From contig JABEUS010000116.1 of assembly GCA_013044285.1 (NCBI GenBank), forward strand, positions 1-35,841: a DNA stretch of 35,841 nucleotides, written 5' to 3'. Below, piece after piece: positions 29,042 to 31,941 of the stretch (the stretch's first letter is position 1; every line of letters starts with the position of its first letter). A model generated the notes under the pieces. It made no database searches. It worked only from the letters and a program-made list of their open reading frames with translations, and had not been told where the DNA came from. The DNA is from Acidimicrobiaceae bacterium. GTDB lineage: Bacteria; Actinomycetota; Acidimicrobiia; Acidimicrobiales; RAAP-2. The position numbers and the translations under genes are program-made.

Positions 29042-29775
29042 GACGTTCGAAGGACGAGATCGCGAAGATGCGCCGGGCCGGCAAGGTCGTGGCGGAGATG
29101 CACGAGGCGACCCGCGCTGTTCTGCGACCCGGTATCACCACGGCGTACCTCAACGAAGTAGCTGCCGCCGTCCTCGAAAAGCGCGGGGCTCGTTCTAACT
29201 TTCTCGGGTATCACGGGTTCCCCGCGGTGATCTGCACCAGTCCGAACGACATGATTGTGCACGGAATTCCCGGTGAGTACGTCCTCGAAGAGGGTGACAT
29301 TATCTCGGTCGACTGCGGGGCAATTATTGAGGGCTACCACGGCGACGCCGCGTACACGGCGGGAGTGGGGGAGATTTCTCCCGACGCCCGTCGACTCCTC
29401 GAGGTCACGGAGCGCTCGTTGTGGGCCGGAGTGGACCAGATGACGGTGGGTAATCGTCTCCACGAAATCGGTCGGGCCGTTCAGACCGTCGCCGAGGCTG
29501 CCGGATTCTCCGTCGTCACCGAGTACGTGGGCCACGCCATTGGCACGGAGATGCACGAGCAGCCCCAGGTGCCTAACTACTGGCCGGGTAGCCCCGGTCC
29601 GACTCTGAAGTCCGGGATGGTCTTCGCGGTCGAGCCCATGGTGAACGTGGGAGGGCCCGAAACGTACACCTTGGACGACGGGTGGAGTGTGCTCACCGAA
29701 GACGGCTCCCTGTCGGCGCACTTTGAACACACCATCGCCATACTCGACGACGGACCCGAAGTTCTGACTCTCTAG
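29038..29775 (+). CDS. map: Methionine aminopeptidase, type I
   Basis: GTG start; ICTSPNDMIVHGIPG, DGYHGDAA-type metal site (EGYHGDAAYT), GHAIGTEMHEQPQVPNY. Confidence 0.97.
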   Translation: MRRSKDEIAKMRRAGKVVAEMHEATRAVLRPGITTAYLNEVAAAVLEKRGARSNFLGYHGFPAVICTSPNDMIVHGIPGEYVLEEGDIISVDCGAIIEGYHGDAAYTAGVGEISPDARRLLEVTERSLWAGVDQMTVGNRLHEIGRAVQTVAEAAGFSVVTEYVGHAIGTEMHEQPQVPNYWPGSPGPTLKSGMVFAVEPMVNVGGPETYTLDDGWSVLTEDGSLSAHFEHTIAILDDGPEVLTL

Positions 29776-30419
29776 AAGAGTCCGTCGGGGTGACGCTCCA
29801 TCTGGCGTTGGGCGAAGAGGGCCGCCTCGGTGCGACGCTGGAAGCCCAGTTTGGCGAGCAGGTTGGAGACGTAGTTTTTTACTGTTTTTTCGGCGAGAAA
29901 CATCGTCTCGCCAATCTCTCGGTTCGTCATCCCCTCACTCAACAACTCCAGAATCTTGCGTTCTTGGGGGCTGAGACTGGAGAGGCGTAGATCCTCGGCG
30001 ATCTGTCGGCGAAGTCGTTCCTTCGCTCGTTCGACCTGCTCGTCGCTCAACAGCATCTCTCCTTGAGCGACCCGACGGACTGCACTCACGAGCTCGTCGC
30101 CGCGCACGTTCTTCAAAACGTAGCCCCGGGCGCCGGCGATCACCGACGCACTCAGGGCTTCACTATCGGCGAAGGAGGTCAACATGAGACAGGCGAGCGA
30201 GGGGTACACCTCGCGCAGGCTTCGACAGAGGTCCACCCCCGAGCCATCGGGCAGTCGGACGTCGAGTACGGCGACGTCAACATCGGCGAGGTCTAAATCG
30301 AGGGCCTCGCCGACCATCCCCGCTTCGGCCACGACCCGGAGACCGTCGTGAGCCTCAAGGAGTTCGCGTAGTCCCCGTCGGACAATTTCGTGATCGTCGA
30401 CCAAAACCAGCCGGATCAT
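29772..30419 (-). CDS. devR: DevR/DosR-like NarL/LuxR-family response regulator
   Basis: [17 protein letters not shown] receiver, [11 protein letters not shown] phospho-Asp, HTH [31 protein letters not shown] close to recalled mycobacterial DevR ([31 protein letters not shown]). Confidence 0.85.
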   Translation of the reverse strand: [215 protein letters not shown]

Positions 30420-31567
30420 CACGCCCCCTTCGGAACTCGCCAAGTCACTAGTGTGCCATAGTTCTCCGCACTCTCGACCCGGCACTCCCCTCCGAGGTCC
30501 TGGGCTCGGGTTCGTAGGTTGCGCAGGCCCCGTCCCGGTCCCCCTTCGAGAGTGAATCCGACGCCGTTGTCACTCACGGTGATCACCAAGTCTTCGTCGT
30601 CGAGGCCCACGTGGACCGATACATCACTGGCTTGAGCGTGGCGAACGACGTTGGAGAGGATCTCTCTCAGGGCCAGCACACTCTGGTCGGCCACGTGTTC
30701 AGAGACTGCGCCCGAGACCGCGGAGTTCATCTCGAAGCCGGCCCGCAGCCCTAAGCGTTGGTCCACTTCGGCGACGAGCGCTCCGGCGCGCTGGCGAAGA
30801 GTGGCCCCCGACGTGGCGTCGTGGTCGATTTCGAAGATGGTGGTCCGAATCTCTTGAATCGTTGAGTCCAGTTCCTCGAGGGCCGAGTCGATCCGTCGAG
30901 CCACGTCACCTTCGGACTGGGGGAGGGCGAGTTGGAGGCTGAGGCCGACCCCGAAAAGACGCTGGATCACGGTGTCGTGGAGGTCACGGGCGAGTCGTTC
31001 ACGCTCCTCGGCCACGGTGAGATCGCGCAGAGTGCGTCGCAGATTGGCTTGGTCGATCACGATACCGGCGGCCCGTCCGAAGGCCTCGAGGAGGCGCTCG
31101 TCGTCCTCGGAGAAGCTTCGTCCGGGGTCGCCGGTCGTGACGTAGAGATTGCCCCACACGTGCCCGTCGCGCGTGACGATCGGGACACCGAGGAAGGCGT
31201 GCATCGGCGGGTGGCCCGGTGGCAAATTGGGGTTGTCGTCACCTCGCAGGTCGTCGACTCGAACTGGTCGGCGAGCCCGGATGGTTTGGCCCAGTACTCC
31301 GTGGCCGGTAGGGGAGGGACCCATCGCGTCACGCTCCTCGTCACTGACGCCCACCGTGATGAACTCGGCCAGGCGGGTGCCGTCTCCATGAAGGACACCG
31401 AGAGCCCCGAAGGGGGCATCGACCAACTCGGCCGACATTCGTGTGATCTGGGTCAAGATGTCGGGAAGCGGTGCCTCCACCTCGATGAGGAGCATTGCCT
31501 CAATGAGGGCGTGAAGACGACGAGGGTCGACAATCTCGTGAAAACTCACACTCCCACTGTTCCACAC
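30419..31567 (-). CDS. devS: DevS/DosT-like GAF-domain sensor histidine kinase (single GAF)
   Basis: HisKA_3 box [24 protein letters not shown], HATPase VSDNGVGF; one GAF containing [28 protein letters not shown], matching the DevS GAF-A heme-ligand region. Confidence 0.82.
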   Translation of the reverse strand: [382 protein letters not shown]

Positions 31568-31575
31568 GGGGAGGT

Positions 31576-31941
31576 TTAGTGAAGTTGACCCACGACCACC
31601 GCCAGGGGCAGTGTAATAAGGCGGTGGTCGTGGGTCGGGCTGGGGGCGGCCGGGTCGAGCGGGGCAAGTGAGGAGATGCCCGACGCAACCACCGACCAGG
31701 GATGGCCGTCGTCGAGACCGTCGACTTGGACGGTCAAAACGTCGTGCCGACGCGCCGCTTGGACCACCGCCACGTCAGCGGAGTCGAGGAGGGCCAAATC
31801 GTGGTCCACCAGTCGCACCCGCGTCGGTAGAGCGGTCGGCAAGCAGCGCACACTGATAAGGACGCGGGCCATCGTGGCCGCCGCGAGGCGTCGTACGCAC
31901 TCGTCGCGGCTCAAAACTTCCTGGACGTCGTTACCAGTCAC
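31576..31941 (-). CDS. Pyridoxamine 5'-phosphate oxidase (PPOX)-like split-barrel protein
   Basis: LSRDECVRRLAAATMARVLISV..., internal HPWSVVASGISSLAPL resembling the GWSVVVxG motif of PPOX-like proteins; GTG start; directly upstream of devS on the same strand. Confidence 0.6.
   Translation of the reverse strand: MTGNDVQEVLSRDECVRRLAAATMARVLISVRCLPTALPTRVRLVDHDLALLDSADVAVVQAARRHDVLTVQVDGLDDGHPWSVVASGISSLAPLDPAAPSPTHDHRLITLPLAVVVGQLH
31587..31636. repeat. 17-bp perfect inverted repeat at the PPOX-gene 3' end, upstream of devS
   Basis: GACCCACGACCACCGCC - 16 nt - GGCGGTGGTCGTGGGTC. Confidence 0.95.

Follow-up and report, generated by a model that had tools for sequence, protein, structure and literature searches.

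A DevR/DevS-type two-component cassette with an Fsq-like gene lies within the ribosomal gene cluster in an uncultured genus of actinobacteria, where it has probably been present from an early stage of the genus. From the window (the whole stretch of DNA analysed, 35,841 nucleotides of contig JABEUS010000116.1 from an Acidimicrobiaceae bacterium) and its relatives, we consider it quite probable that this is an autoregulated hypoxia or redox module with a single-GAF kinase, which moved early to the junction of map and infA, has been inherited vertically and does not directly regulate infA. There is good support for the identity of the system. In the window the cassette consists of three minus-strand genes (31941→29772) sited between map and infA, as the sequence-only reading had described them; the open reading frames were recovered, and the motifs it quoted from the regulator HTH and the kinase HisKA_3 box are present in the proteins. 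The features are as follows.

29038-29775, plus strand: map (methionine aminopeptidase), overlapping the 3' end of the regulator gene tail to tail
29772-30422, minus strand: regulator gene (DevR-type NarL/FixJ response regulator), with a likely ATG start at 30419; from PDB match, reciprocal search and tree
30419-31567, minus strand: kinase gene (sensor histidine kinase with GAF, HisKA_3 and HATPase_c); from Pfam and PDB hits
31576-31941, minus strand: PPOX gene (Fsq-like split-barrel protein of 121 aa), first of the operon; from Pyridox_ox_2, AlphaFold and PDB fold match
31948-31953, minus strand: -10-like hexamer CATGCT of PPOX, kept in most aligned cassette promoters
31975-31994, minus strand: DevR-box-like site TTTGGGACTTTCGGCCATAG, matching the DosR consensus at 14/20 positions
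32015-32044, plus strand: infA promoter, TTGCAT - 18 nt - TAGAAT, read from the sequence; its -10 is conserved with or without the cassette
32045-32125, plus strand: infA 5' leader with two hairpins predicted in individual folds and the Shine-Dalgarno AAGGAG at 32113-32118
32126-32350, plus strand: infA (IF1) with a CTG start codon, divergent from PPOX

Transcription proceeds from PPOX (31941-31576) through the kinase (31567-30419) to the regulator (30422-29772), and because PPOX and kinase are separated by 8 nt while the kinase stop and regulator start overlap as TGATG, all three genes likely form a single tight operon. At its downstream end, the stop codons of map and regulator both lie within the CTAG at 29772-29775, a tail-to-tail overlap of 4 nt.

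By its sequence relationships, the regulator belongs to the DevR clade proper. It combines Response_reg with GerE (a NarL-type HTH) in Pfam, and its top PDB match is M. tuberculosis DevR (3c3w, 207 bits), 86 bits ahead of VraR (121 bits), which comes next. When M. tuberculosis DevR was used as query against 41 genomes, its top match in the window genome was the cassette regulator (53% identity, 206 bits); the other matches there reach at most 143 bits and 41% identity. The recognition helix EKTVKNYVS aligns with that of DevR letter for letter, whereas VraR carries Thr at the Asn position, and Lys179, Lys182 and Asn183, which we take to be the recognition-helix residues of DevR, are present in the cassette protein. 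A maximum-likelihood tree unites 19 cassette regulators in one clade (100/99), which groups with M. tuberculosis DevR, apart from VraR and from four paralogues of the window genome. The fork joining all DevR-like rows has a support of 89/95, and exact rooting is uncertain since the paralogues are long branches. Reciprocal search and tree thus place the regulator inside the DevR clade and not with generic LiaR/NarL proteins, in agreement with the DevR/DevS kinship first proposed from the letters.

The kinase carries the HisKA_3 and HATPase_c core of DevS/DosT heme sensor kinases, preceded by one GAF domain (residues about 32-177) whose PDB ranking is led by DosT GAF-A (2vzw, 114 bits) and then DosS GAF-A. 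Because Pfam finds a single GAF, at residues 32-172, before HisKA_3 and no GAF-B, we regard it as a single-GAF DevS-type kinase and not as DevS in the strict sense. In DosS, His149 is the proximal heme ligand and Tyr171 the distal Tyr involved in ligand discrimination (PMC4082495). Equivalents of both residues, of DosS Met152 and of DosT Gly85 (position 87/85) are unchanged in all 30 of 30 cassette kinases, and likewise in 11 of 11 kinases outside the cassette. In tandem-GAF kinases of the phylum these residues are confined to GAF-A and absent from GAF-B, in keeping with a role as markers of the heme domain. From these residues we infer that the cassette GAF binds heme; counting against our preferred explanation, GAF-B is lacking and the HPPM motif need not imply heme binding in every GAF kinase.

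As to the PPOX protein, the window copy scarcely exceeds the Pfam cut-off for Pyridox_ox_2 (28.1 versus 27 bits), and the family is nonetheless real, since 29 of 30 homologues match that domain. Its AlphaFold model (mean pLDDT 89) has 6eci as best PDB fold, the structure of MSMEG_5243 (Fsq), which occupies all of ranks 1-7 at an identity of about 18%. Fsq is a dormancy-regulon member that sequesters FAD under hypoxia, and the related Rv0080 is part of that regulon too (PMC13284343). The link between the PPOX gene and dormancy drawn in the sequence-only reading is thereby supported, the closest solved fold being that of a dormancy-regulon protein, and the PPOX protein may itself bind FAD. Seven or more further families of the order also have an Fsq-like gene within a few kb of DevR/DevS genes, so the association with DevRS is probably older than the present location between map and infA.

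Upstream of PPOX, the CATGCT hexamer ends 6 nt ahead of the start codon, which makes a leaderless mRNA likely. Wherever the promoter is intact, the aligned cassettes have a site near GNGACNNNNGNCC(C/A)TA upstream of PPOX, and in 23 of 23 cases it starts 37-39 nt ahead of a CATGCT-like -10 of PPOX, which in turn ends a few nt short of the start codon. From the infA -10, by contrast, the site lies 51 to 179 nt away depending on the cassette, and 51-55 nt away in the window and its nearest relatives. DevRS-linked PPOX genes from four other families (G043, G039, G047, G343) have a similar site about 50-66 nt upstream, and there infA is not a neighbour. Fixed spacing to one promoter, variable spacing to the other and occurrence away from infA together lead us to assign the site to the promoter of the cassette itself. 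Matches to the published DosR and OsdR consensus alone are weak (9-14 of 20 positions per genome for DosR, significant in 4 of 29 promoters), so we call it DevR-box-like on account of its conservation and position, and the cassette's DevR orthologue would be the protein to bind it. In kinase-regulator intergenic regions of other families such a site is mostly absent. A consensus promoter and terminator scan detected no promoters and missed conserved ones as well, which makes it uninformative for promoters here.

Scanning the window genome with GGGACNNNNGGYC for a DevR regulon gave 81 matches against 39 in a reversed control, those inspected being mostly intragenic; intergenic matches near a CsoR-like gene and before another PPOX gene misfit the cassette spacing, so we claim no regulon for this genome. 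Across the genus, GKGACYNNNGRCCCTA gave about 95 matches against about 33 in the control, and cassette promoters are part of this excess. Sites outside the cassette (L204, L197, L218, L231, L192, L224, L221) precede genes for alcohol dehydrogenase, acetate uptake (GPR1/FUN34/YaaH), amino-acid permease and aldehyde dehydrogenase. Such sites are compatible with a hypoxia regulon, albeit only suggestive at about 2-fold over control.

On the other side of the intergenic region, infA has no ATG, GTG or TTG start; a CTG lies 7 nt after AAGGAG. All genus loci examined have this CTG start, including those that lack the cassette, and so do most of the order's other families; one family of the order has GTT instead and one genome of the same class GTA, while in several more distant genomes of the phylum infA starts with ATG. 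Its leader begins with an invariant AGCCG, continues with two successive hairpins of variable sequence and ends with an invariant AAGGAG...CTG. The mean folding z-score is -2.5 over 26 sequences, with hairpins seen in individual folds whose stems vary and misalign in the MAFFT alignment, yielding no RNAalifold consensus, and an Rfam search matched it to no family. We regard it as a candidate regulatory leader of the infA-rpmJ-rpsM-rpsK-rpsD operon. The infC gene has an AUU start codon and is autoregulated; by analogy, the CTG of infA may reflect start-codon-based autoregulation.

That the junction is peculiar to this strain can be dismissed, since our synteny survey finds it across the genus. 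We sampled 40 genomes of the genus: in 22 of them the cassette is divergent from and directly beside infA; in seven (G006, G009, G013, G020, G026, G031, G035) it is displaced, has an intervening gene or is cut by a contig end, and in the remaining 11 no intact cassette is found at the junction or none is detectable. The arrangement is conserved rather than accidental, and its most conserved part is the divergent PPOX-infA pair. In G270 and G290 the cassette adjoins infA but not map. Other genes can sit between PPOX and infA (G031, G006). Among the eleven, G022 has nothing left of the cassette between map and infA but a remnant of the regulator gene (L158 1228-1479), a natural cassette loss, and some carry another DevR/DevS pair, whose kinase and regulator genes are divergent. 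The premise that map and infA are normally contiguous holds in part: several outgroup families space them by about 90-170 nt, but others have unrelated genes inserted, so the junction is permissive. Unrelated genes were seen at this junction in several genomes of the order (L154, L160, L162, L168). This suggests that map-infA is a recurrent insertion point within the ribosomal cluster.

Taking these lines together, the explanation we prefer would run as follows. The kinase's single GAF-A-type domain would bind heme and, upon a fall in O2 or binding of CO or NO, the kinase would phosphorylate the DevR orthologue. DevR~P may then bind the site centred near -42 of the PPOX promoter and raise expression of its own operon, whose first product, an Fsq-like and presumably flavin-binding protein, would protect or store FAD in hypoxia. 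As for its history, the DevR/DevS module and PPOX were probably already neighbours at another place in an ancestral genome. Early in the genus the module probably entered the map-infA junction, a permissive spot, and became one operon there; it would have been inherited vertically since, with several losses, and would exert no direct control over infA.

Could the location itself be functional? Head-on spc transcription into devR, a DevR-bound divergent promoter beside infA, or both, might form an excludon-like toggle between growth and dormancy, fixed within one genus. We hold this to be unlikely, though if it were true, dormancy signalling would be antagonistic to ribosome synthesis. Physical coupling taken by itself, in which the spc transcript runs into devR through the shared CTAG stops with no terminator between and fast growth shuts the dormancy operon down, whether through collision or through antisense RNA, draws on the 4-nt tail-to-tail overlap of map and devR in ten loci and on a search that found no intrinsic terminator between 29400 and 32600. 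Rho-dependent or unrecognised terminators are possible, however, and in many members of the genus map and devR lie 9-50 nt or about 500-2000 nt apart, so to our minds such silencing is distinctly unlikely.

Direct control goes back to the sequence-only reading, which saw a possible direct link between hypoxia signalling and ribosome supply: from the intergenic region between the divergent genes, DevR~P would govern infA and the alpha operon as well. Despite the conservation of the divergent pair and the short distance, in the window and its nearest relatives, from the site to the infA -10, we judge it very improbable: the site keeps its place relative to PPOX and not to infA, the PPOX-site unit occurs away from infA in other families, genes can intervene between PPOX and infA, and infA retains its TAGAAT promoter and leader in four genomes that have no intact cassette at the junction (L157-L160). 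Hardly probable, finally, is a generic system of NarL/LiaR type that responds to some other signal and has an unrelated PPOX gene as its neighbour, since the lack of an NCBIfam equivalog above cut-off for regulator or kinase and the frequency of single-GAF kinases of similar length in the phylum are set against a DevR-clade regulator, conserved heme-pocket residues, an Fsq-type fold and a conserved site.

The module we favour, an autoregulated cassette without direct hold on infA, resembles the DevR (DosR)-DevS/DosT system of M. tuberculosis in its regulator (53% identical to DevR, with a shared EKTVKNY recognition helix), in a GAF closest to the GAF-A of DosT and DosS (heme His, distal Tyr, DosT-type Gly) and in its dormancy-regulon-type PPOX partner with a DevR-box-like site upstream. 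It differs in having one GAF in the kinase, where DevS and DosT have two (GAF-A and GAF-B), and in the order PPOX-kinase-regulator within one operon inside a ribosomal protein cluster. By its description, OsdK-OsdR of Streptomyces coelicolor similarly pairs a DevR-clade regulator with a DevS-like kinase and uses a palindromic GGCC-type site (PMC5069765), yet its gene order is osdR-osdK, its neighbours are others and no ribosomal gene link is reported. With Fsq (MSMEG_5243) and Rv0080, FAD-binding proteins of the FDOR family, the PPOX protein shares the 6eci fold, a predicted split barrel and a DevR-type site upstream, although Fsq and Rv3129 have roughly 147 aa against its 121 aa and identity is the low value given above. 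A full-text literature search (subscription papers lying outside its scope) returned no paper joining Acidimicrobiia and DosR.

Our findings add an uncultured actinobacterial genus to the range of the DevR/DevS hypoxia switch and of the Fsq-type flavin protein that partners it; there the dormancy module takes a minimal form, contained in a single operon. With infA divergent on one side and map convergent on the other, its junctions offer a clean natural test of whether position alone couples dormancy to ribosomal gene expression.
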